Shown: positions 486 through 16,051 of the stretch, piece by piece
Position numbering within the stretch: position 1 is the stretch's first letter
Layout: every line of letters begins with the position of its first letter
Source of the DNA: a virus
Virus record (IMG/VR): IMGVR_UViG_3300025889_007657
Location: 1 to 23,032 of that record
Direction: 5' to 3' (one strand)
DNA length: 23,032 nt
Made by a program: the position numbers and the translations under genes
The notes under the pieces: generated by a model
Databases searched by the model: none
Seen by the model: only the letters and a program-made list of their open reading frames with translations
Told to the model about the DNA's origin: nothing

Positions 486-1787
486 ATGTACTTACAATCA
501 AAAGTTATAGTCTATGGTTTTCGCAACATAGAAACTCAAGAAGTTTATATTGGGTATAAACCCGCAGGAAAATCTCACTACGTCAGTTCTTCTGGCAACG
601 CCGATTTCTGGCGTGATTATTCTCAAGGGTTGCTTCGCCAATATATTCTTTTCATTGGCGATGGTTACTATGAAAAAGATCGCCAAATCGCCGAAGCATT
701 AGAGTGGTTTGCACTCGATTATGCGTTTAACGTCTTGGGGGAATCCAAGATGTATAACTCGCATAACAATGCGCACAAAAAGCATGAGTCTCTTCTCACT
801 GCTGAGATTAAGTCCGTTGTCGTCGACTGGATCGAATTCCGTTCGGACGGAATTGTGTTGAGAAACACCTACCAAGAAGATCGGGAAAGAGTTCAAGCAA
901 TTGTCGATCGCATAAAGGATAAGTTCTATCCCGTTGAGCAAGTTTCGTTGTCAAAGGTATCTAAGTTCGAAGCCAATCAGGTTCGATGCGAGCAGTACAT
1001 CCGTTCTCATGTAAACGACATTGCTCAGCGCATTAAAGAGAACCCAGACAACTATGAGAAAAACGTTGACCCCATTGTCACAGTGGTGGGTAAGGATACA
1101 ACTATCCTTGATGGCAACAACACTGCTCGCGCGTTAGAAAAAGTTCCTGGGATTAGTGAAGCTCCAGTCATTTTCATTAACGAAACTGAGTTTGGTGAAA
1201 CTGAAGAAGTTCGTGAAAGGTGTTACAACTTGTTCGGTCTTATTATGAACAAGGCACCTGATGTAGTTCGGGTAGAAAATAGTAACTCTGACATCAAGCG
1301 TCAGATACAGTTACTTCTCCAAAACGAGAACTTGGACCTTACAAAACCACTTCACGTTGACCGCGCTAGAAAAGTTGTAGAAGATTTCTTTCTACACAGT
1401 GTCATCCCCACTAAACAAAAACTCAATGGCGTGTGGAAGTCTTTCATGACTGACTTTGCGAAAGGGCAGTCTGAAAAATATCGACAAAACATGAAAGTCT
1501 ATGACGACTCATATCTTTCCAGATACTGCTGGGAAAATTATGAGTCAAAAGACGTGGCTGTTATTCACGCTTCAATGTCTAAGACTGAATATGCGCAGGC
1601 ATTTGCTTACGTTTGTCGTCGTATGAGAAACGTCGACACCAACAAAGGTGCAATTGTGCTTCATTATGCCACTCCCTATGAGTACCAAAAGTACAATGAT
1701 GGAGTATCGTTGGAAGACCTCAAGTCTACCGTTGAACACACTGGATTAAATATCATAGTGGACGTGCTGCCAGCATTTGATGAATAA
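486..1787 (+). CDS. ParB-like domain protein with possible GIY-YIG-like N-terminus
   Basis: This 433-aa protein opens the candidate DNA-modification operon. Residues 195-215 contain DPIVTVV followed by ILDGNNTAR, matching the ParB/Srx-type core in which a Pro-Ile strand leads to a DG-N-R turn. Residues 7-25 (VIVYGF, then EVYIGYK) with E73 and YNSHNN (90-95) resemble the layout of a GIY-YIG nuclease, but the usual arginine helix is not clear, so this part is tentative. The C-terminal half, residues 240-433, is unassigned. ATG at 486 is preceded by AGAGGA with 8-base spacing. The stop overlaps the next gene. ParB-like proteins are known neighbours of phage thymine-hypermodification enzymes. A role as a DNA- or nucleotide-binding partner or nuclease in that pathway is inference; plasmid-style partitioning is unlikely in this context. 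Confidence 0.6.
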   Translation: MYLQSKVIVYGFRNIETQEVYIGYKPAGKSHYVSSSGNADFWRDYSQGLLRQYILFIGDGYYEKDRQIAEALEWFALDYAFNVLGESKMYNSHNNAHKKHESLLTAEIKSVVVDWIEFRSDGIVLRNTYQEDRERVQAIVDRIKDKFYPVEQVSLSKVSKFEANQVRCEQYIRSHVNDIAQRIKENPDNYEKNVDPIVTVVGKDTTILDGNNTARALEKVPGISEAPVIFINETEFGETEEVRERCYNLFGLIMNKAPDVVRVENSNSDIKRQIQLLLQNENLDLTKPLHVDRARKVVEDFFLHSVIPTKQKLNGVWKSFMTDFAKGQSEKYRQNMKVYDDSYLSRYCWENYESKDVAVIHASMSKTEYAQAFAYVCRRMRNVDTNKGAIVLHYATPYEYQKYNDGVSLEDLKSTVEHTGLNIIVDVLPAFDE

Positions 1788-2754
1788 TCGTAGCATATTT
1801 GTAGAGTGGTTCGGTCGCAGTCTTGAAATAGAAGACTGCGACCCTGCATTGTACATGACTAAATACTTCTTTGATCGTTTTGAATACAACAAAGAACAAA
1901 GACTCTGGATAACTTGGATTTATGGAACAACTTATTATTGGCCAACTGCCTATGTGGTTTGGAACGAATTCCCCGACATGGAGTTGGTTGGCGTTGATCG
2001 CCTTCGCGATTGGAATAACACCAATTATCGCCGCTTGCGTTATCAAACCGACACGAAATGGAATAAAGGACATCTTACAGATCAGTTCGTTTCGTACCAG
2101 CGATATGTTGGAGAACGAACACAACACGATGCACTCACACAAGGATTTGTCGGAGACCCCGTAAAGGATTTCTATACTCTTTGGGAGACAGTTAATGCGT
2201 TTCACAAATTTGGTAGATACTCTTCTTGGTTTTATATCCAAACGCTCAAACAGTGCTGTGATATTCCAGTTGATGTTGATAGTCTTTGGTTGCACGACTA
2301 TAGCGGTTCTCGTTCGCATCGTAACGGACTATGTTACGCACTAGGAAAAGAAGATTGGGTAGATCAAAAGTTGGACAAAGATCAAATAGCATTTCTGGAA
2401 AGTGAAGCAAAGGAAATGTTAGAAGAAACCAAACTAAAATATCCTCACGTTGCTGATAAGGCAGACTTCTTTGCCATGGAAACCTGCCTCTGCTCCTTCA
2501 AAAAACTATTCCGTAGAAAACATGGTCGATATCTTGGATACTACCTTGACCGACAATCAGAAGAGATAAAAAAGGTTGAGAGAGACGGTTGGGATGGGAT
2601 TGACTGGACACCGATGTGGGATGCCAGAAACGAAACTATTGACCGAGAGTGGTTAAAGGGTAGAATAGACAAAGAACTGTTTAACGTTTTCCTCGATACA
2701 GGGGACTTTCATCCCAAAGATAGAGCGAATGGATTAGAGGATTTCTTTGCATGA
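1780..2754 (+). CDS. Alpha-glutamyl/putrescinyl-thymine pyrophosphorylase-like protein (amino acid:DNA transferase family)
   Basis: The protein has 324 aa from ATG 1780; the TTG at 1777 just upstream is a less likely start. The start lies inside the end of the previous gene, implying translational coupling. The family-like features are a Trp/Tyr-rich region near residues 38-60 ending in WNEFPD, a GRYSSW segment at 145-150, and the string DYSGSRSHRNGL at 173-184. These resemble the all-helical phage family proposed to displace pyrophosphate from 5-pyrophosphomethyl-uracil in DNA with an amine or amino acid. Such enzymes act after a 5-hydroxymethyluracil DNA kinase, and a kinase of that type sits two genes downstream. 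Assignment is from memory of family motifs plus neighbourhood; the amine donor cannot be predicted. It ends in an ATGA overlap with the next start. Confidence 0.65.
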   Translation: MNNRSIFVEWFGRSLEIEDCDPALYMTKYFFDRFEYNKEQRLWITWIYGTTYYWPTAYVVWNEFPDMELVGVDRLRDWNNTNYRRLRYQTDTKWNKGHLTDQFVSYQRYVGERTQHDALTQGFVGDPVKDFYTLWETVNAFHKFGRYSSWFYIQTLKQCCDIPVDVDSLWLHDYSGSRSHRNGLCYALGKEDWVDQKLDKDQIAFLESEAKEMLEETKLKYPHVADKADFFAMETCLCSFKKLFRRKHGRYLGYYLDRQSEEIKKVERDGWDGIDWTPMWDARNETIDREWLKGRIDKELFNVFLDTGDFHPKDRANGLEDFFA

Positions 2755-2981
2755 CACCTCAACAAATATTTGATTACAAGAATCGTTGGATGCCTGGATT
2801 TGAAGTTACTTTGCACAGCGACCTTGAGCGAGAAGGAAAGGATTGGTGCAAGAGATTAATGGGTAAAGAGTCTTGGCATTTTAAATCTTTCACCAACATA
2901 TACCAACATTCCTTCTACTTTGAAAAAGAGATCATGGCACAGAACTTTATTATGGAATTCGGGAGATTCACCAACCAATGA
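2751..2981 (+). CDS. Small conserved phage protein of unknown function in the modification operon
   Basis: A 76-aa protein without signal peptide or membrane segment, rich in aromatic residues and Trp (W13, W32, W42). It overlaps the genes on both sides by ATGA (2751-2754 and 2978-2981), so it is almost certainly translated as part of the operon. The opening MTPQQIFDYKNRWMPG and a compact alpha/beta pattern recall small hypothetical proteins of other T4-type phages, but no function is known to me. Its position between the putative transferase and the DNA kinase suggests an accessory or adaptor role in the same pathway. That is inference from position only. Confidence 0.75.
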   Translation: MTPQQIFDYKNRWMPGFEVTLHSDLEREGKDWCKRLMGKESWHFKSFTNIYQHSFYFEKEIMAQNFIMEFGRFTNQ

Positions 2982-3523
2982 AAGTGATCTACCTTATTGG
3001 TATTCCTGGAACTGGCAAGTCCACCATCATGAAAGAGTTTATGAAGACTCAATGTGGTGAGTGGAAGCAAGATCGACCTATTGACCTTCTTGACACTCAC
3101 GTGAATGGTACTGTCCGTATCCTTGGCAAGTATGAGGAAGGCGAGACTTTCAGTGGTACTGATCGTCTGAGCATGGCAGTTGCCCCCAAAGCAATCGAGT
3201 GGATCTCCACTCAACCCGACGAACTAATCGTCGGCGAAGGTGATCGTTTGAACAACGCAGGTTTCTTCGAAGCATGCGGCGACAACCTCACCATTATCCA
3301 CCTAACTGTATCGGACGCTGAACGTGAACGCCGATATAAAGAGCGAGGATCCGACCAGTCTGAGAAATTCATCCAGACTTGCCGCACCAAATGCGCCAAC
3401 ATCCTTGAGCGTTTCGGCGACCAGCAGACCCTGTTCGGGGAGGAGAAAGGATGCGTCATTGAGATGCGTCATGAAACTCCCTCTGACACACAGGAGATAG
3501 TCAACTTCATTCTAAGTTGTTGA
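2978..3523 (+). CDS. P-loop kinase, likely 5-hydroxymethyluracil DNA kinase-like
   Basis: This 181-aa nucleoside-kinase-like protein begins directly with a Walker A loop, GIPGTGKST at residues 8-16. GTDRLSM (60-66) and EGDRL (87-91, the probable Walker B region) follow. An Arg-rich lid segment around 115-124 (ERERRYKERG) resembles the LID of AMP/shikimate-type kinases. The combination of GTDRLSMAV and EGDRL matches what I know of phage 5-hmdU DNA kinases, which use ATP to phosphorylate hydroxymethyluracil within DNA before amine substitution. A GGGAGA box at 2961-2966 precedes the ATG, which overlaps the previous stop. It is the last gene of the operon. Specific substrate is inferred from motif resemblance and the neighbouring transferase-like gene; a generic (d)NMP kinase is the alternative. 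Confidence 0.7.
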   Translation: MKVIYLIGIPGTGKSTIMKEFMKTQCGEWKQDRPIDLLDTHVNGTVRILGKYEEGETFSGTDRLSMAVAPKAIEWISTQPDELIVGEGDRLNNAGFFEACGDNLTIIHLTVSDAERERRYKERGSDQSEKFIQTCRTKCANILERFGDQQTLFGEEKGCVIEMRHETPSDTQEIVNFILSC

Positions 3524-8164: not shown

Positions 8165-8377
8165 ATGGCAGAAAAAGAAAAGACATTCAAGGTCGACGAT
8201 GTTCGCCCAATCTACGACGCTTCTTTCCGAGCATCGCGTACTATGATCTCAGTGATCGATGCTATGTGTGGTCGTGGCGCAGTAAAGGGTGAGGAGTTGT
8301 CCGCTGTTGGTCAATTGCGCGACCAGTGTGTACAAATCGCCCAGATGTGTGAACAGTTCCACTCTGAAAACGAGTAA
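8165..8377 (+). CDS. Small protein of unknown function downstream of the clamp gene
   Basis: A 70-aa protein from ATG 8165, preceded by GGAG (8152-8155). An upstream in-frame start at 8108 would lie inside the clamp gene and is rejected. It starts MAEKEKTFKVDDVRPIYDAS and contains two Cys in an otherwise helical, charged sequence. It has no membrane segment. It sits 4 bases after the clamp stop and its stop overlaps the next start (TAATG, 8375-8379), so the three genes are probably co-transcribed. T4 places the RNA-polymerase-binding RpbA beside gene 45, but no sequence resemblance is visible. Confidence 0.75.
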   Translation: MAEKEKTFKVDDVRPIYDASFRASRTMISVIDAMCGRGAVKGEELSAVGQLRDQCVQIAQMCEQFHSENE

Positions 8378-8868
8378 TGATCTTCGATAAGTCTGAATAC
8401 GATTTCGTGGATGCTCTTGAAAGTAATTGGAAAGGCATTCGCGAAGAGTATTATCAATCTACTCTAGAACATATGCAGTGGTTTGAACCAGACTTAAACG
8501 AAGATAAGAAGTGGCAAGTATTACCAATCTATGATTGGCCAATGGGACTGGCGGTTGAAGGGTACGCGGAAAACCTTCCCTTCACTAAAGGTATCATCGA
8601 CAAGCATATCCCTTATCACCGTGCAGCGAGTTTCTCTCGGTTACAAGCAGGAGCGTTTGTTCCTGAACATAACGGTATAAGGGGAGATTGGCATAGGTTG
8701 CATTTAGGCATAGACATACCAGAAGGTGATTGTGGTATTACTATTGGCGGTGCACCCTATAAATGGAAGAATGGAGAGTGTATGGTGTTCGATGATTATG
8801 AACGCCACTCTGCTTGGAACAAAACCGATCAAGATCGGATTGTATTGATAATAGACTTTATACCATGA
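8377..8868 (+). CDS. Aspartyl/asparaginyl beta-hydroxylase-like dioxygenase
   Basis: A 163-aa protein consisting almost only of the double-stranded beta-helix core of the Asp/Asn hydroxylase family (Asp_Arg_Hydrox type). Visible landmarks are H98 in PEHNG, R107 in WHRLHLGIDIP, C119, W130 and G133 in WKNGECMVFDDYERHSAWN with H144, and R154 in RIVLIIDF. This family coordinates iron with two histidines and lacks the usual acidic third ligand, which fits H98/H144. R154 would bind 2-oxoglutarate. Members hydroxylate Asp, Asn or Pro side chains on proteins. The target is unknown; a clamp-proximal or virion protein is a guess from position. The start overlaps the previous stop. Confidence 0.8.
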   Translation: MIFDKSEYDFVDALESNWKGIREEYYQSTLEHMQWFEPDLNEDKKWQVLPIYDWPMGLAVEGYAENLPFTKGIIDKHIPYHRAASFSRLQAGAFVPEHNGIRGDWHRLHLGIDIPEGDCGITIGGAPYKWKNGECMVFDDYERHSAWNKTDQDRIVLIIDFIP

Positions 8869-9319: not shown

Positions 9320-9340
9320 TGCTCTTTTCTAGAGCATTTT
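9320..9340 (+). terminator. Second short hairpin with T-run
   Basis: TGCTCT (9320-9325) pairs with AGAGCA (9331-9336) across a 5-base loop and is followed by TTTT (9337-9340). It sits just upstream of the late promoter and would insulate it from early transcription as a back-up terminator. Confidence 0.6.
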
Positions 9341-9343
9341 AAG

Positions 9344-9351
9344 TATAAATA
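9344..9351 (+). promoter_or_regulatory. T4-type late promoter TATAAATA
   Basis: An exact TATAAATA, the -10 element recognised by T4-type late sigma (gp55) with the gp45 clamp as activator. It is placed between a terminator and the secreted/membrane cassette starting at 9435. No -35 is needed for this class. The rest of 9352-9434 is AT-rich leader with no gene seen. Confidence 0.75.
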
Positions 9352-9434: not shown

Positions 9435-10034
9435 ATGCACCAATTAGATAAATCATTAATCCGCATATGCATATTTGCGGTAATAGCGACATTTGTTGTC
9501 AGTATGATGCCTGCACTCGTCTACGGTCAAGAAGAATCGTTAAACGACGTTATACGAACAGAGTCTATTACAGATAGCACTGTCACAACTAACGGTAATA
9601 CTACTACTCGATTGAAGTCGCCTCCTGCTTCGGCAATCACCCCAACAATAAATACTTCTAACTCTGACCTTTGTACCTTTGGAGTTGCTGGCGCGATACA
9701 AACTCAGATATTGGGTGTGTCCACAGGAACTCAGTTCACAGATGAAAACTGTGAACGACTAAAGAATGCCAAAACTCTGTACGATATGGGCATGAAGGTT
9801 GCCGCTGTTTCTGTTATGTGTCAAGACGAAAGAGTTTTCAATGCTATGATGCATGCGGGAACCCCTTGCCCATATGATGGGTTAATCGGCGCAGAAGCAA
9901 AGGCAGCGTGGTTGGCAGAAGGTAAAAGTGTCGAGAGTCCAGCGGAAGAGGCAGGGATAGATGAAAAGACAAAAGATACAGCAGTTGCTAGTGGCGGTAT
10001 CGCTGGTTTGTTGGCACTCTTACTCTTACTCTGA
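9435..10034 (+). CDS. Exported protein of unknown function with hydrophobic C-terminal tail
   Basis: A 199-aa protein, first gene of the late cassette. The N-terminus (residues 10-29) is a hydrophobic signal or anchor, with a possible cleavage after VYG (31). A Thr/Ser-rich region follows. Residues from about 78 (SDLCTFGVAGAIQTQILG) to 145 hold four Cys, consistent with disulfides in the periplasm. The last 14 residues, SGGIAGLLALLLLL (186-199), form a short hydrophobic tail. TAAGGT before ATG 9435 is the ribosome site. The last 74 bases overlap the next gene in another frame. The sequence recalls proteins from other marine T4-type phages, but I know no function. Envelope or virion location is inferred from the signal and the late promoter. 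Confidence 0.75.
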   Translation: MHQLDKSLIRICIFAVIATFVVSMMPALVYGQEESLNDVIRTESITDSTVTTNGNTTTRLKSPPASAITPTINTSNSDLCTFGVAGAIQTQILGVSTGTQFTDENCERLKNAKTLYDMGMKVAAVSVMCQDERVFNAMMHAGTPCPYDGLIGAEAKAAWLAEGKSVESPAEEAGIDEKTKDTAVASGGIAGLLALLLLL

Positions 10035-10848
10035 GCAAGTATTCGGTACGACTAATAATGCCTCACGAGCAGGGTATAATTGGGTGATGACCAATATACT
10101 GCCTGCACAAGCAGGGTTGACTGTCAACGGAGTGGTGTATCAATATACCACCGTAAAAGAAGAACAAGACCAAATGGTGGTTCACGTTCAAAACGAGAAC
10201 CCGATAGATGGCGGATATACATTCAGGAGTTCTGACGATTGGTCAGGTATTCCAGGGAACACAATCAATAAGATTGTGCCCGTTGCTAGAATCCCGATAC
10301 AATATTGGGGGGAAGGTTCGATAGAGGTAGAGGGAAATGGAGAGGTGACCGACCCATTTGTGTTCTACTCTTATCAATACGATACTTGTTTTGACCCACA
10401 ATCAAACCCAGATTGTCCTGGATATAAAGTTGAGGTTCCAGACATACCCTCAGTACAAATTGTGGACCCCCTTGACGATCAATTTGTTCAAGATGAAATT
10501 GACAGGGATATGATGATGCGTGACGAAGATGAAGAAGAACGTACTCGAAAAGAAGTTGCGCAAGATGATGAAGAAAGAGAAGAGGAAATAGATTTAGAGA
10601 ATGTTTTGGGTATCGTGAATCGCTCATTACAGACAGCAGAAGATACCGCAAAGCACAATCAACAGATGGCACTGAATCAGTTTTCGCAAGGGTACTTTGT
10701 ACAATTACCCGATACAATATATGAAGAAACAACTACATTGAAAGACGCGACGTTACCGAGAAATAAACGTGGTCGTCGTTTGGAATTTACACAACAATTA
10801 TTGCATCAACAATTAGTGAAAAGTCAATATAAACTAGGAGAACGATAA
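9961..10848 (+). CDS. Exported structural-like protein with charged coiled-coil region
   Basis: A 295-aa protein. ATG 9961 gives an N-terminal signal (MKRQK, then LLVAVSLVC 9-17, possible cleavage after SYS 24), which supports this start despite a 74-base overlap with the previous gene. A GAGG box at 9948-9951 precedes it. The body begins QVFGTTNNASRAGYNWVMTN, with a beta-rich part to about residue 150 and a Cys pair in DTCFDPQSNPDCPGYK. A highly charged helical stretch (about 175-225, DEDEEERTRKEV and so on) and a Gln-rich C-terminus follow. The layout suits an envelope-spanning or virion fibre-associated protein, but no function is known to me. The stop overlaps the next ATG (TAATG, 10846-10850). 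Confidence 0.75.
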   Translation: MKRQKIQQLLVAVSLVCWHSYSYSEQVFGTTNNASRAGYNWVMTNILPAQAGLTVNGVVYQYTTVKEEQDQMVVHVQNENPIDGGYTFRSSDDWSGIPGNTINKIVPVARIPIQYWGEGSIEVEGNGEVTDPFVFYSYQYDTCFDPQSNPDCPGYKVEVPDIPSVQIVDPLDDQFVQDEIDRDMMMRDEDEEERTRKEVAQDDEEREEEIDLENVLGIVNRSLQTAEDTAKHNQQMALNQFSQGYFVQLPDTIYEETTTLKDATLPRNKRGRRLEFTQQLLHQQLVKSQYKLGER

Positions 10849-11345
10849 TGTTCAAGAAAACGATAGTCGCTACTATGCTCTCGGCATCTTTTTGTGCTCA
10901 GGCGATAGAGACTCCAATCATAGGTAACGTGGAGTCTAAATGCGTTGTCACAACAGATAAGCAGGGTGTCTATGGAAACCCAACCTCTGACGTGTTGAGT
11001 ACTGACGCAGCAGATGGTGGAGTTGAACCAGTAGTTCGGTACGACGTAATCATAGCAGATGCTTACAAAGCAGTTATAACCCATCCAACTTCTTTCTCGC
11101 AGAGTCCAACGTTGAATGACACCGTAGCATGGACAGGTTCTACTTCTGTAGAAGCAGTTTCTGATGCTCAGATGTCTGCCTATGATAATGATAAAATTGT
11201 GTACGAGTCGACCACTGAAGTAGATCTTTCTTACACTGGTAGCACTTGGTTCAAAGTAAGTTCAGAAGCAAGTTACGGGTTTAACAAAGCATTCCCTGGT
11301 GGAACCTACACTGCAATTGTACAAGCATCTTGTATAGCATTGTAA
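10848..11345 (+). CDS. Exported protein of unknown function
   Basis: A 165-aa protein with a classic Sec signal peptide: MFKK, a hydrophobic core, and cleavage after AQA (17-19). AGGAG at 10836-10840 precedes the ATG. The mature part is beta-rich, with many Thr/Ser/Val, and two Cys: one near the start (ESKC) and one in the closing QASCIAL, likely a disulfide. The general look resembles pilin-like or fimbrial-adhesin-like beta-sandwich proteins, and the segment NPTSDVLSTDAADGG recurs, as I recall, in homologues from marine phages. No catalytic motif is visible. Being the third of five successive exported proteins, it may form part of an envelope or particle-surface assembly (inference). Confidence 0.75.
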   Translation: MFKKTIVATMLSASFCAQAIETPIIGNVESKCVVTTDKQGVYGNPTSDVLSTDAADGGVEPVVRYDVIIADAYKAVITHPTSFSQSPTLNDTVAWTGSTSVEAVSDAQMSAYDNDKIVYESTTEVDLSYTGSTWFKVSSEASYGFNKAFPGGTYTAIVQASCIAL

Positions 11346-11348
11346 ACC

Positions 11349-11723
11349 ATGATATATGTTATGGCATTGCTGGCATCCTTCTTTAGTGGGCAAGTATTTG
11401 CTCACGAATGGGTGCCAACTTATCCTAAGTTGGAACTATCTTCTGTTCCATCTATTTTACGTGCTGAAATGCACCTACTTAATCGAAGAGAGGACGTAGA
11501 GTATTATTCTTTTGAAGTGTTTGATGAAGATTTTGAACCAGTACCATTCGCCGCTACCCAGAGAACTGTGAGACTAAAGTATCTGGATAGAAAAAATGTA
11601 AATATTTACATAAGAGTTAGAGATGCGGACAAGGTAGTTTACATATGTTCTAGATCTGAAATTGTTGCTGACAAAGAAACTAGAACTGTAGTTTCTTCTA
11701 GAATATGCTCTAAAGTGAAATGA
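11349..11723 (+). CDS. Exported protein of unknown function
   Basis: A 124-aa protein with a signal peptide (hydrophobic residues 2-14, cleavage after VFA 16-18) and a mature start HEWVPTYPKL. The mature domain is small, beta-rich and ends with a Cys pair (YICSRS, then RICSKVK). The beta-strand pattern (VEYYSFEVFDEDFEPVPF, NVNIYIRVRDADKVVYIC) resembles an immunoglobulin-like or chaperone-like sandwich, without a family match I can name. It starts 3 bases after the previous stop and lacks a good ribosome site, suggesting translational coupling. Its stop overlaps the next start by ATGA. Its base composition is more AT-rich than the replication genes. Confidence 0.72.
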   Translation: MIYVMALLASFFSGQVFAHEWVPTYPKLELSSVPSILRAEMHLLNRREDVEYYSFEVFDEDFEPVPFAATQRTVRLKYLDRKNVNIYIRVRDADKVVYICSRSEIVADKETRTVVSSRICSKVK

Positions 11724-12160
11724 GAAGAGTATTAGTTGTATTCGTATATTTCATATTTGGGTTTTGGGTTGGTTCTGCATATGCGCAATCCAACGGAATA
11801 AACCTGAGTATACCTCAGAGTGGGCAGAACTTTCAAAACGATCGCGTGAGAGCGGGTGATGTTGAGTGTTCTGCTGCTATAGGTTCTTCGACTAACGTTG
11901 AGTTTGGTGTAGTTGGAATCATGAATCAAAATGATCCTCTCTACAACTTAGCAAGTAGTGATCCAAACTTTTATTATAATAACAATGACTTTGTAAGAGA
12001 TGTTGGTGTCTATGGAAAGATAACTATCCCGATTGGTGCGCCAAAGAAGAGATTGAATTGTGATGCTTTGTATCAACTAGAGTTAGAAAAGAAACGACTT
12101 GAAGTTATAAAGTTAAGGCAAGAAATACAAAACTTACAAAACCTACAATTCGAGAAATAG
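11720..12160 (+). CDS. Exported protein with C-terminal coiled coil
   Basis: A 146-aa protein with a signal peptide (MRR, hydrophobic 4-18, cleavage after AYA 20-22). The mature part begins QSNGINLSIPQSGQNFQND and contains VECSAAIGSSTNVEFGVVGI, then VGVYGKITIPIGAPKKRLNC: two Cys and a beta pattern that looks like paired strands of a barrel or pore-lining element. Residues 115-146 form a Leu/Lys/Glu heptad coiled coil ending LQNLQFEK. It overlaps the previous gene by ATGA and ends 8 bases before the next. Function unknown. A small oligomeric outer-membrane-associated protein is one reading, not proven. Confidence 0.72.
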   Translation: MRRVLVVFVYFIFGFWVGSAYAQSNGINLSIPQSGQNFQNDRVRAGDVECSAAIGSSTNVEFGVVGIMNQNDPLYNLASSDPNFYYNNNDFVRDVGVYGKITIPIGAPKKRLNCDALYQLELEKKRLEVIKLRQEIQNLQNLQFEK

Positions 12161-12168
12161 GGGGAATT

Positions 12169-12756
12169 ATGGAAATTATCCTAGACTTAATGATCACTTG
12201 GTGGCAGTTTACTATTGTCGGAGCACTCATACTTGTTGGACTTTGTGTTAACATGTTTGGTGTCGACAACGACAAAGAACTAATTGGTTTTAGCGCAAAG
12301 GAAATGCCTCACATGCAACCTATCGTCATTCCCACAGCTGGGAAGGGATTCTGGGGAGCAATATTCCTGTGGTTGATGGGTACTCGCACTTGGACGATTA
12401 CCAAAGATTATCACTTCACCATTCACGGTCAAAACTATGTGATACCAAAAGGGTTCACTTTTGACGGGGCATCGGTTCCTAAGTTTTTAGCATCATGGTT
12501 GTCTCCCGTTGGTGTACTTTTAGTTGGGGGTTTGGTACACGACTACATCTACAAATATGAGATGCTACTAAAGAAAGGAGGAAAGGAGACTTCTCATACC
12601 CTCACTCAGAAAGATGCAGATATCATCTTCCGTGATATTAACATCGAGCAAAATGGTTTTCATCTCATGAATTACTTAGCATACTGGGCACTTCGCTTAG
12701 GAGGTTTTGTGGCATGGAACGGACACCGTAAACGCAACTGTAAAATAGGAGAATAA
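12169..12756 (+). CDS. DUF1353 membrane protein
   Basis: A 195-aa protein. Residues 11-31 are a membrane segment; a second hydrophobic stretch covers about 61-72. The DUF1353 core follows: IPKGFTFDGASVP at 92-104, a hydrophobic turn, and HDYIY at 124-128, then an Asp-containing helix (KDADIIF) and a C-terminal Trp region. The conserved Asp and His-Asp pair suggest a metal or catalytic site, but no activity is established for this family. Phages often carry DUF1353 genes among late or lysis-proximal genes. An AGGGGGA box at 12159-12165 precedes the ATG. It is followed at once by three more small membrane proteins. Confidence 0.78.
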   Translation: MEIILDLMITWWQFTIVGALILVGLCVNMFGVDNDKELIGFSAKEMPHMQPIVIPTAGKGFWGAIFLWLMGTRTWTITKDYHFTIHGQNYVIPKGFTFDGASVPKFLASWLSPVGVLLVGGLVHDYIYKYEMLLKKGGKETSHTLTQKDADIIFRDINIEQNGFHLMNYLAYWALRLGGFVAWNGHRKRNCKIGE

Positions 12757-12757
12757 T

Positions 12758-12916
12758 ATGGACTGGTTAAAAGGAAGACTCGGGGAAAGAACTTCATTAG
12801 ATGGCGCAGTATTGATTGCCATTGGAGGTTCTGTTTTACTTCTCGGTCCATTGGCAAAATGGGCAGCACTAGGTGCAATCGGTTACGGCATCTGGACGTT
12901 ACTCAAGAAGGGATAA
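12758..12916 (+). CDS. Small membrane protein, 52 aa
   Basis: ATG 12758, one base after the previous stop, preceded by AGGAG; TAA at 12914-12916. The sequence opens MDWLKGRLGERTSLDGAVL and is hydrophobic from residue 16 to 46 (LIAIGGSVLLLGPLAKWAAL and on), long enough for one long or two short membrane helices, with a basic end LKKG. Similar tiny proteins accompany DUF1353 genes in other T4-type phages, as far as I recall. It might be a holin-like or membrane-accessory peptide. Size and position fit, but nothing proves it. Confidence 0.75.
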   Translation: MDWLKGRLGERTSLDGAVLIAIGGSVLLLGPLAKWAALGAIGYGIWTLLKKG

Positions 12917-12919
12917 AAA

Positions 12920-13396
12920 ATGGCAGAATTTGAATTCGCCGGAATGACATTTAGAGGAGGAAAGGCAGTGGTCTTGGTCACTGCCCTTTCAACTTTGGGT
13001 GGTGGTGCATGGGGTGCGTTCGAATTTTATAATGACTATCGCAACATGAAGGCACAGATAGAAGAATATGTTGCTCCAGATTTATCGCACATTGAACAAG
13101 AATTAGCAGTTCAAAGCGAAACAATGGCATCCTTACAAGCATTGGTTGAACAGATGGAGAAGAAGTTGGATGCCACTGAAGAGAAATTGAATGATGATAT
13201 GGACAAAGTAGAAGCACTTGCTCGTAAAGTAGACGATGAAACTGCTTCGACTCAACGAGAACTCAGGGATGATGTTTATGCGATTGAGCAAAAGGTTAAT
13301 GATAGATTGAGAACTGTGGACCAAGACATTCGTGATGTCAGGAAGGATCTTGAAGAAAAGATTCAACTCATACTAGACAATCCATTAAATAACTAG
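12920..13396 (+). CDS. Membrane-anchored coiled-coil protein
   Basis: A 158-aa protein. A short N-terminal stretch (MAEFEFAGMTFRGGK) precedes one membrane helix at about 15-37 with a Gly-rich face. From about residue 42 to 152 it is almost entirely heptad-patterned (SETMASLQALVEQMEKKLDATEEKL, in two blocks), a long parallel coiled coil projecting from the membrane. No signal cleavage site is seen. The layout, one anchor plus a rod, is like inner-membrane spanins or superinfection-exclusion proteins, but no partner outer-membrane lipoprotein lies beside it. AAGGGA before ATG 12920 is the ribosome site. Confidence 0.75.
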   Translation: MAEFEFAGMTFRGGKAVVLVTALSTLGGGAWGAFEFYNDYRNMKAQIEEYVAPDLSHIEQELAVQSETMASLQALVEQMEKKLDATEEKLNDDMDKVEALARKVDDETASTQRELRDDVYAIEQKVNDRLRTVDQDIRDVRKDLEEKIQLILDNPLNN

Positions 13397-13405
13397 GAGT
13401 CCGGA

Positions 13406-13729
13406 ATGTCAGAAGAAGAAAAGGCAGGGTTTCACCCAGCAGATACTAATGGTGATGGCAAGGTTAGCGAAGAAGAGCATGCAATGTATATGGAATTTCG
13501 CCGCAAGGAACTTGAAGACCAAGATGCTATGCGGGACGCACAACGAAGCATGACTTGGTTTGCTCTTGCTGGTATGTTAATGTATCCATTCGCCGTTGTC
13601 GGTACGGAATTTATCGGTATGGACAAAGCAGCAAATATTCTTGGCGACATGGCACCTACATACTTTGTCGCTGTTGCTGGTTTGGTTGCAGCGTTCTTTG
13701 GTGCTCAAGCATGGTCCGGAAAAAAGTAG
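13406..13729 (+). CDS. EF-hand membrane protein
   Basis: A 107-aa protein with a canonical calcium-binding EF-hand loop near the N-terminus: DTNGDGKVSEEE at residues 13-24, with D1, N3, D5, G6, hydrophobic V8 and E12 all in place. A charged helix (25-48) leads to two membrane helices at about 50-70 and 84-103, so both ends probably face the same side. AGGAG (13395-13399) precedes ATG 13406. It is the last gene of the late cassette. A calcium-responsive two-helix membrane protein could be a holin or pore regulator; this is inference from topology. Confidence 0.78.
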   Translation: MSEEEKAGFHPADTNGDGKVSEEEHAMYMEFRRKELEDQDAMRDAQRSMTWFALAGMLMYPFAVVGTEFIGMDKAANILGDMAPTYFVAVAGLVAAFFGAQAWSGKK

Positions 13730-13758: not shown

Positions 13759-13792
13759 TACTACAGTCTCGAGATGACTCTAAACTCGCTCT

Positions 13793-13833
13793 GGTCGGTA
13801 CGCACCGTCACCTGAGTATGTGAAAAACTGCTC
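13793..13833 (+). promoter_or_regulatory. Structured 5' leader: two adjacent hairpins
   Basis: The transcript from 13730-13758 would have a leader of about 100 bases. It contains a strong hairpin, GGTCGGT (13793-13799) pairing with ACCG (13804-13807) and ACC (13810-13812) around a 2-base bulge and an ACGC loop. A second hairpin follows, GAGTA/TGCTC (13814-13818, 13829-13833). The second is repeated before the next gene. This arrangement is suggestive of a cis-acting RNA, family unknown. Confidence 0.45.
13811..13833 (+). repeat. Leader repeat, copy 1 (CCTGAG-N-CTGCTC hairpin)
   Basis: The string CCTGAGTATGTG, then AAAAACTGCTC, is repeated nearly exactly at 14081-14104. The T/C difference at 13817 keeps pairing (G-T here, G-C in copy 2), as expected for a conserved RNA stem. 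Confidence 0.6.
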
Positions 13834-14123: not shown

Positions 14124-15329
14124 ATGAAAATTGCTGTTACTGGAGTCGGAATTGTTTCTCCCATCGGGAGCAATTTGTCCGAAAATATGCAGAACCTCTT
14201 TGACATGACAGTAGGTTCGTCAGATAACAGAATCCCGCCTGATAACTTATCATCGGAATTGATTAAAAGCACTAAAATATTCTATTCTCAATATACTGAT
14301 GAGCAAGCAAGTCAGCACATCAATCTAAAAGAACTCCGTTACTCTGACCCTGTCATTAAAACTAGCATGATGGCAGTTGACGAAGCAGTACAGATGAGTG
14401 GGATAGACTTACCGAAAGAGACCCCTGTGGTTGTAGGGAGCATCCAGGGTGGAGTCACCACTTACAATGCTTGGGTTGATAAACTATCAAGAAAGGCATC
14501 AAGGAAGGTTCACCCAAAAGTCCTTTTGAGTAGTTCTCATGAATATATCGGCAATCTTATCTCAGAAAGATACCAGATACATGGTCCTTCCTGCGTTGTT
14601 TCTGCTACTTGTATCAGTGGCGTTCAATCATTAGAGTTTGGTAGAAATTATTTGATGCAAGGACACGATTGTGCCATAATCGGTGCTTCTGATCATATGA
14701 CTGCCAGTCTCACTATGTACTATTTTGAACAGTTGGGTGCGTTAAGTCCAACCTCTGAGGTTAAACCATGGGACGTTTCTCGTAATGGGACGGTGATGGG
14801 CGAGGGTAGTGTTTATCTCGTAATAGAACCACTTGACTCTGCACTTAAAAGAAAGGCAAAGATTCGCTGGGTCATCGACGGTATCGCGACTTCTAGTGAC
14901 GCAGGGCATCCGACTGCTCCTTCTCCTGAAGGTATCGGTGGGAAGATAGCAATTAAAGAAGCGATGAGGCAGTCTAATGTTGCCCCCAAGGATTACTCTG
15001 TATTGAACGCTCACGGTACAGGCACTGTATTGGGCGACCCTATTGAGTATAATGTTCTTCGTCATTTCTACGATTCTGGTAAAATTTATAGCAACAAAGG
15101 GCAGATAGGTCATTTGATGGGTGCTAGTTGCCTTGCTGAGTTGGTGCTTGGTGCCGAAGCGATGATAGAAGATTGGATTCCAGGTAACGCAGGATTGCAA
15201 GAACCATTTCCCAATGATGGGCACTTTGAGTTTATGTTCTCTCCCCAAAAATATTCATACAACCATATGATGAAAACCAGTTTTGGTTTTGGGGGACGTT
15301 GTTCAGCAGTGAGTGTGAGAAAATCATGA
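14124..15329 (+). CDS. Beta-ketoacyl-ACP synthase (FabF-like)
   Basis: A 401-aa protein, close to the 413 aa of bacterial FabF. The thiolase fold opens with VTGVGIVSPIGSN. The full catalytic triad is present: Cys163 in SATCISG, His297 in NAHGTGTVLGDPIE and His330 in GQIGHLMGAS. The C-terminal loop FGFGGRCSAV replaces the usual FGFGGTN. The enzyme class condenses malonyl-ACP with an acyl chain, so the phage could alter host acyl chains or make an acyl group for a conjugate. No acyl carrier protein or other fatty-acid gene is nearby, so it would depend on the host ACP. GGAG (14113-14116) precedes the ATG by 7 bases. The ATGA overlap with a glycosyltransferase suggests a joint product, for example a modified glycolipid or DNA adduct (inference). 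Confidence 0.9.
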   Translation: MKIAVTGVGIVSPIGSNLSENMQNLFDMTVGSSDNRIPPDNLSSELIKSTKIFYSQYTDEQASQHINLKELRYSDPVIKTSMMAVDEAVQMSGIDLPKETPVVVGSIQGGVTTYNAWVDKLSRKASRKVHPKVLLSSSHEYIGNLISERYQIHGPSCVVSATCISGVQSLEFGRNYLMQGHDCAIIGASDHMTASLTMYYFEQLGALSPTSEVKPWDVSRNGTVMGEGSVYLVIEPLDSALKRKAKIRWVIDGIATSSDAGHPTAPSPEGIGGKIAIKEAMRQSNVAPKDYSVLNAHGTGTVLGDPIEYNVLRHFYDSGKIYSNKGQIGHLMGASCLAELVLGAEAMIEDWIPGNAGLQEPFPNDGHFEFMFSPQKYSYNHMMKTSFGFGGRCSAVSVRKS

Positions 15330-16051
15330 TAAGTCTTTGTATTCCGTACTATGAAGATCCTAACAGACTTCGCAGTATCCTCATGAACGATTGGATAGAA
15401 CTTTTCGATGAAGTGATTATTGTTGATGATGGTTCTGTTGAGTATCCAGCGAAACCAATCATTGAAGAGTTTGAAGATGAGGGCATATTTTGGTATGCTA
15501 ATTTATCTCTCTATCGAGTGATACACGACCTTGGATTCAATGCTCATGGTGCCCGTAATCTCGCCGCCAAAGAAGCAACTAGCGACTGGTTGTTCTTTAT
15601 GGACGTGGATATGGAGTTGACTGAAGGATTCTGTAAAGAACTCTTCGAGAGAGTCGAGAGCACTCCAGAGGGCGAGTTTATAGTCTGTAGGGTACTTGGC
15701 CAAGACTGTATAAACATATTCTGTGTGCGCTCGGAGGACTTCTGGAAGGCAGGAGGATACGACGAGGAGACTAAAGGGTATCATTTGGGCGATAGAATGT
15801 TCAGGGAGAGACTAGATTCCTTTTGCAAACCAGTTCTGACCGACACCAATTTGCCGTGTAACAGAATGGCAAGAAAGAAGTATGCAGATGATACCATAAC
15901 AGGCACGATGTACCCAGATGATCGCACCGTTGTAGAGAGAAATGTTAAACACATTAAACCAATATTGAAGATGATAGAGGAGAGAAACAAAGACCCCAAA
16001 TTATGGGTTAAAATACCTAAAATTTGTTTTGACTGGGAAAAGATTTTTTAG
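15326..16051 (+). CDS. GT2-like (GT-A fold) glycosyltransferase
   Basis: A 241-aa protein from ATG 15326, overlapping the ketoacyl synthase stop by ATGA; an in-frame TTG at 15299 is less likely. The GT-A fold is clear: ISLCIPYYED at the start, EVIIVDDGS (29-37) for nucleotide binding, ARNLAAKEATSDWLFFMDVDME with a DxD-type metal site (D93-V-D95), and GGYDEETKGYHLGDRMF, the acceptor/catalytic region. Members transfer a sugar from a nucleotide-sugar to lipid, protein, sugar or, in phages, hydroxymethylated DNA. Coupling to a ketoacyl synthase is unusual. The acceptor is unknown. Confidence 0.8.
   Translation: MISLCIPYYEDPNRLRSILMNDWIELFDEVIIVDDGSVEYPAKPIIEEFEDEGIFWYANLSLYRVIHDLGFNAHGARNLAAKEATSDWLFFMDVDMELTEGFCKELFERVESTPEGEFIVCRVLGQDCINIFCVRSEDFWKAGGYDEETKGYHLGDRMFRERLDSFCKPVLTDTNLPCNRMARKKYADDTITGTMYPDDRTVVERNVKHIKPILKMIEERNKDPKLWVKIPKICFDWEKIF

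Follow-up and report, generated by a model that had tools for sequence, protein, structure and literature searches.

What is the role of a tightly packed block of late genes for exported and membrane proteins in a marine phage? Such a block lies in IMG/VR virus record IMGVR_UViG_3300025889_007657 (positions 1 to 23,032, referred to here in its entirety as the window), a 23-kb fragment of a marine T4-like phage whose T4-type replication genes include a sliding clamp and, by sequence, also a clamp loader, regA and a DNA polymerase. The initial annotation had described a cassette of nine open reading frames (ORFs) at 9435-13729, and all nine are present on the plus strand as a compact operon, in the order S1, S2, S3, S4, S5, DUF1353, M2, CC and EF, with successive intergenic gaps of -74, -1, 3, -4, 8, 1, 3 and 9 nucleotides (nt). 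We find that the real unit consists of six of these genes, S1-S5 and CC, while DUF1353, M2 and EF are movable neighbours. The six-gene core appears to be undescribed, with no Pfam or NCBIfam family of its own. In our judgement the chances are about even that it is a late trans-envelope module which contributes to breaching the envelope at lysis; DUF1353 and EF would then act as an accessory phospholipase and holin.

The unit is defined by conserved gene order. A scan with S1 gave at least 600 matches, of which the best 80 were used, and the conservation counts are therefore conditional on closeness to the window. In 52 of the 53 loci with enough downstream sequence, S1-S2-S3-S4-S5-CC are colinear; the remaining locus reads S1-S2-CC. 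Of the clustered loci, 28 include EF, while DUF1353 and M2 are less frequent there. Scanning with the DUF1353 protein identified 23 loci, among which L021-L023 carry all nine genes, with insertions. In phages Melnitz and HTVC008M, EF stands in the tail region adjoining the tape-measure gene, away from DUF1353. The proposal of an undescribed envelope-spanning set, conserved across phages as a block, is thus borne out for S1-S5 and CC, but not for all nine genes. Independent occurrence in relatives had been named as the observation that would speak against a common system, and it is found in part: DUF1353, M2 and EF occur separately, and the core itself splits into S3-S4-S5 and S1 without S3-S5.

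Among 43 contigs, one encodes a T4 major capsid protein and three a T7-type portal, so that S1 is not confined to a single kind of tailed phage. Bacterial genomes gave 25 loci with S1, all of them on metagenome-assembled or single-cell contigs and none from a cultured organism; hence there is no sign of a bacterial or prophage S1 family. Inside or beside the block, two loci (L021:6478-6897 and L020:1266-1670) encode a protein with a GDCEDYALT motif, resembling by eye the bacterial transglutaminase-like cysteine peptidases.

The timing of expression is indicated by a T4-type late promoter, TATAAATA, at 9344-9351 on the plus strand, some 85 nt before S1 begins and where the initial annotation had placed the start of the block. 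Taken in the window alone, a single match of this kind could arise by chance; among relatives, however, 26 of 80 have the motif in the 150 nt preceding S1, against 35 of 1600 random stretches. A terminator-like hairpin stands 5' of the block (9320-9336, plus strand). Two terminators had been thought to isolate the block, of which only this one is supported, since the terminator scan reported none just 3' of EF.

The five proteins S1-S5 have hydrophobic N-termini that end at the cleavage sites previously named for them (after VYG, SYS, AQA, VFA and AYA). An N-terminal hydrophobic stretch is conserved in their homologues (S1, 92/96; S2, 77/82; S3, 74/75; S4, 68/71; S5, 65/69) far above its frequency in control ORFs on the same contigs (112/544), in agreement with the five consecutive Sec-type signals first proposed. 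Likewise, the cysteine pairs noted in most of these proteins are reflected in an even number of cysteines in nearly all homologues. None of the five window proteins has a lipobox, none falls in a named Pfam or NCBIfam family, and searches of PDB sequences with profiles of S1-S5 and of DUF1353 gave no significant match.

S1 (9435-10034, plus strand; phrog_20531, function unknown) is exported; it has a four-cysteine domain that is conserved, and at its C terminus a hydrophobic, leucine-rich tail that is present in 87 of 96 homologues. The signal peptide of S2 (9961-10848, plus strand) is encoded out of frame within the 3' end of S1, and this overlap is kept in 85 of 88 loci, with a median of 71 nt. 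As both the tail and the overlap are conserved, the overlapping DNA encodes the S1 tail and the S2 signal peptide at once. The AlphaFold prediction for S2 (predicted local distance difference test, pLDDT, 83.5; predicted template modelling score, pTM, 0.51) has a confident jelly-roll domain at residues 26-141, followed by a long helix (174-238) and a C-terminal helix. The jelly roll gave only generic matches, with a best VIA Z of 8.4, and no family was assigned. S3 (10848-11345, plus strand) has an invariant C32/C162 pair linking its N and C ends, and S5 (11720-12160, plus strand; phrog_37374) has C50/C114 as its invariant pair and a helical segment at the C terminus. CC (12920-13396, plus strand) is the coiled-coil rod of the first description: an N-terminal membrane segment, hydrophobic in 56 of 73 homologues, precedes a coiled coil of about 110 residues and the C-terminal motif NPLNN, in an orientation suggested by flanking charges only.

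The core looks as if it were made of two sub-modules, one of which, S3-S4-S5, occurs by itself in Vibrio phages, and the other, containing S1 without S3-S5, in pelagiphages. In Vibrio phage Bennett, adjacent genes match the S3, S4 and S5 profiles (E-values of 5e-6, 3e-6 and 1.3e-13), and no S1, S2 or CC was found in that stretch. A search with Bennett S3 returned 179 Vibrio phage records; PS14A.1, D82, D288 and BP15 carry at least S3-S4, and the invariant cysteines are common to the window and the Vibrio phage homologues. Pelagiphages Mosig, HTVC023P, HTVC202P and HTVC115P encode, in the same gene order as the window block, S1, then an exported protein of acidic character and a membrane protein with a coiled coil, but lack S3-S5. 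Homology is clear for their S1 (53-57% identity over about 100 residues) and for the coiled-coil protein of HTVC115P. Profile comparison did not demonstrate it for S2, which is alike in order and character only, or for the CC of Mosig, HTVC023P and HTVC202P.

A role in lysis is suggested by late expression, by position and by the neighbouring genes, and we place about equal weight on its being so and on its not being so. Several loci bring the core genes into direct contact with recognisable lysis genes. S2, DUF1353, CC and a SleB endolysin are contiguous in L006, and SleB follows just 3' of EF in L023; L086, L088 and L108 read S1-S5-CC-EF-GTA_holin-GH19; and in L063 a lysozyme and then a spanin-like pair (i-spanin and o-spanin) lie just upstream of S1. 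Among isolates, the S3-S4-S5 genes of Thalassa precede a short lipoprotein gene, one small gene and the genes of a T-type holin and an endolysin, and Bennett likewise has S3-S4-S5, the lipoprotein, a T holin and an endolysin. A holin-like gene and a lysozyme lie 2 kb after S1 in ctXG6705, EF stands beside spanin-like, holin and endolysin genes in CRP-345 and CRP-810, and DUF1353 is beside amidase endolysins in Fnu1 and Carin1. In a post hoc test, endolysin distances in eight isolate genomes gave a combined p of 1e-6, and 3e-4 when five non-supporting lineages were added at p = 1. Of the roles first proposed for the block, lysis thus has the most neighbourhood support, with superinfection exclusion, an egress channel and periplasmic particle decoration as possible others.

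Genes annotated as lysozyme after S1/S2 in Roseobacter phages CRP-207 and CRP-810 (L030:3292-3873 and L038:5219-5641) were also considered as endolysins. By sequence they are coiled-coil proteins resembling CC, with NPL at the end, and they were therefore dropped as evidence.

A number of observations weigh against a lysis role. The window holds no endolysin or holin identified as of a known family, an endolysin of the three families searched occurs in only 11 of the 43 longer contigs, and proximity tells little in contigs as short as most of these; we therefore take the lysis neighbourhood as support rather than proof. Some relatives carry ordinary spanins, and spanin-like pairs lie beside the block in L053, L054, L063 and L098, so that the module is not a simple replacement for spanins. 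No lysis gene was seen within 5 kb in PS14A.1 and D82, and the S1-like domain of JWAlpha stands outside any lysis region. Finally, the Vibrio phage S3-S4-S5 genes directly follow a gene of about 2.4 kb, a putative tail gene that ends the apparent tail region, an arrangement that equally fits a receptor-related role.

That arrangement leads to an explanation which we consider rather unlikely, though deserving of attention: that the exported proteins serve superinfection exclusion or receptor masking, blocking or altering surface receptors from the periplasm late in infection or before release, and so sparing the cell, or the progeny, from rebinding. Tail-fibre-like ORFs upstream of S1 in several contigs and the lectin-like character of the S2 jelly roll are consistent with it, and in phage T5 the gene of a receptor-blocking lipoprotein lies beside that of the receptor-binding protein. 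However, six co-conserved proteins are many for masking a receptor, a late promoter is late for exclusion, and masking does not predict the recurrent contact with holin and endolysin genes.

S4 (11349-11723, plus strand) is an exported single-domain protein predicted to have the fold of domain 1 of the PapD-like pilus chaperones. Its AlphaFold model (pLDDT 91.1, pTM 0.78) matches PapD in Foldseek with an E-value of 1.4e-4, and domain 1 of FimC, Caf1M and SafB in VIA with a Z of 10.8 over 98-107 residues (root-mean-square deviation 2.9-3.4). The alignment begins at the first mature residue and spans the whole mature protein. A search of BFVD with S4 gave only unnamed or weak matches, and no relatedness between S3 and S4 is detectable. 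S4 shares this fold with the chaperones of chaperone-usher systems (FimC, PapD, Caf1M, CsuC), but differs from them in other respects. With its 124 residues it ends where chaperone domain 1 ends, the second domain being absent, and no usher-sized gene was found in 52 loci, within the conserved block that was searched. As for the basic cleft residues of the chaperones (Arg8 and Lys112), an Arg or Lys conserved among 46 homologues is lacking at the start of the mature protein, where the chaperone arginine would lie, as judged by position in the sequence. Lacking domain 2 and an usher, S4 is not classed as a pilus chaperone. In the literature searched, we found no paper on phage-encoded PapD-like chaperones.

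The same fold could point to an exported fibre or pilus-like structure, in which S4 would be a reduced chaperone, S3 and perhaps S5 the subunits, and CC with S2 the base, for attachment, cell capture or particle decoration. S3 adjoins S4, appears beta-rich by eye and has its cysteine pair near the ends, as in many pilins. On the other hand, the conserved block has no usher-like gene, S4 lacks chaperone domain 2 and a conserved basic residue near mature position 8, and S3 has no convincing match among the Pfam pilins. We regard such a fibre as improbable. That the proteins are ordinary virion components with incidental N-terminal hydrophobic segments is very improbable: the position of EF next to the tape-measure gene of Melnitz and HTVC008M, and the label of tail assembly chaperone that PHROGs and RefSeq give to the DUF1353 family, would agree with it, but five proteins in a row with Sec-type signals and paired cysteines speak for export, and DUF1353 has enzyme residues and adjoins endolysins.

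Returning to the reading of the block as a lysis module, the three movable genes would themselves be of lysis type. DUF1353 (12169-12756, plus strand) combines an N-terminal membrane anchor with a phospholipase-A2-like domain (H124, D125, D151), and its family membership, already recognized in the initial annotation, is secure (PF07087, 50.9 bits against a cut-off of 22.5, E-value 1.2e-13). The three residues are invariant in 18 relatives and across distant phages. TtaP, the founding member of DUF1353, is a demonstrated phospholipase A2 that requires the dyad Asp for its activity, is encoded in an islet together with a muramidase partner, and was noted by its authors to have prophage relatives (PMC11525133). 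The window protein keeps the His, the neighbouring Asp and the dyad Asp of the family, and the His-to-Asp spacing of 15 in the Eowyn protein is the same as that of H70/D85 in TtaP. It differs from TtaP in its additional membrane anchor, and its phospholipase activity is predicted from sequence; a comparison of the DUF1353 profile with PDB sequences gave no match to phospholipase A2. The tail assembly chaperone label is attached to family members in the HTVC008M, Fnu1 and Eowyn records. The conserved phospholipase residues together with the endolysin neighbours suggest that this label is wrong.

M2 and EF look like small membrane hairpins. M2 (12758-12916, plus strand) is a hairpin of 52 residues, holin-like in size only, with one long hydrophobic stretch, and often adjoins DUF1353. 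EF (13406-13729, plus strand) is holin-like, having an EF-hand loop followed by two hydrophobic segments, two by eye of which one is above the transmembrane threshold. The EF-hand first proposed for it is upheld by a canonical 12-residue calcium loop, DTNGDGKVSEEE, whose pattern fits 108 of 119 homologues, but its score against the Pfam EF-hand (18.2 bits) is below the gathering cut-off of 25.9. No paper on EF-hand holins of marine phages was found in the literature searched.

We infer that the six core proteins form one complex, with a particular location in the envelope and a role in lysis, and the following mechanism can be envisaged. S1-S5 would cross the inner membrane via Sec into the oxidizing periplasm and fold there with disulfides. 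CC would be anchored in the inner membrane, with its rod reaching across the periplasm, and S2 and S5 could dock on it by their helical ends, so that a jelly-roll domain and beta domains of PapD-like or other type would face the cell wall or the outer membrane, while the hydrophobic tail of S1 may enter a membrane. The block would thereby weaken or breach the Gram-negative envelope at the end of infection, alongside holin and endolysin. To this the window would add its three lysis-type genes, DUF1353, the small hairpin protein M2 and EF: the membrane-anchored phospholipase would cut membrane lipids, and EF, as a two-helix holin candidate, could respond to sea-water calcium once the membrane leaks.

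The module is near known lysis systems in setting, not in parts. As in the Rz/Rz1 spanins, these are late genes near holin and endolysin, CC resembles an i-spanin in its putative N-terminal membrane segment and long coiled coil, and S1 and S2 overlap out of frame as Rz and Rz1 do. In contrast to spanins, none of the block's exported proteins has a lipobox, and it has six proteins instead of one or two. Melnitz and other pelagimyophages encode CsgGF-like pores, for which a role in the timing of lysis has been proposed (PMC9004378). These too are phage-encoded envelope proteins of marine T4-like phages, but they are curli secretion proteins and are not described within such a block. A bolder, tentative proposal, which we hold to be somewhat unlikely, is that S1-S5 and CC form a single six-part envelope-spanning machine that opens the outer membrane by a non-spanin route, carrying the PapD-like domain of S4 and the S2 jelly roll on a rod in the inner membrane. 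This machine would be widespread among marine phages, with S1-S2-CC and S3-S4-S5 as halves that can be exchanged.

Little is known of how the outer membrane is passed by marine phages in which few lysis genes can be recognized, and the module makes this question testable. It is colinear in dozens of viral contigs and occurs in part in cultured phages of Vibrio, Pelagibacter and Roseobacter. For the DUF1353 phospholipase family it provides a probable function, and it points to a holin candidate linked to calcium.

Near-identical DNA in phage records is limited to one 38-nt match, which lies outside the block, at 13761-13798, with 94.7% identity to a tRNA-Leu annotated in Synechococcus phage S-CAM9; ARAGORN and Rfam found no tRNA at these positions. 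Between the block and the clamp-loader genes, 14124-16051 encode a complete beta-ketoacyl synthase and a family 2 glycosyltransferase. Further upstream in the window, a gene for an aspartyl/asparaginyl beta-hydroxylase (8377-8868) adjoins a tRNA-Pro, and an amino acid:DNA transferase (ADDT) with a P-loop nucleotide kinase (1777-3523) are signs of DNA base hypermodification.

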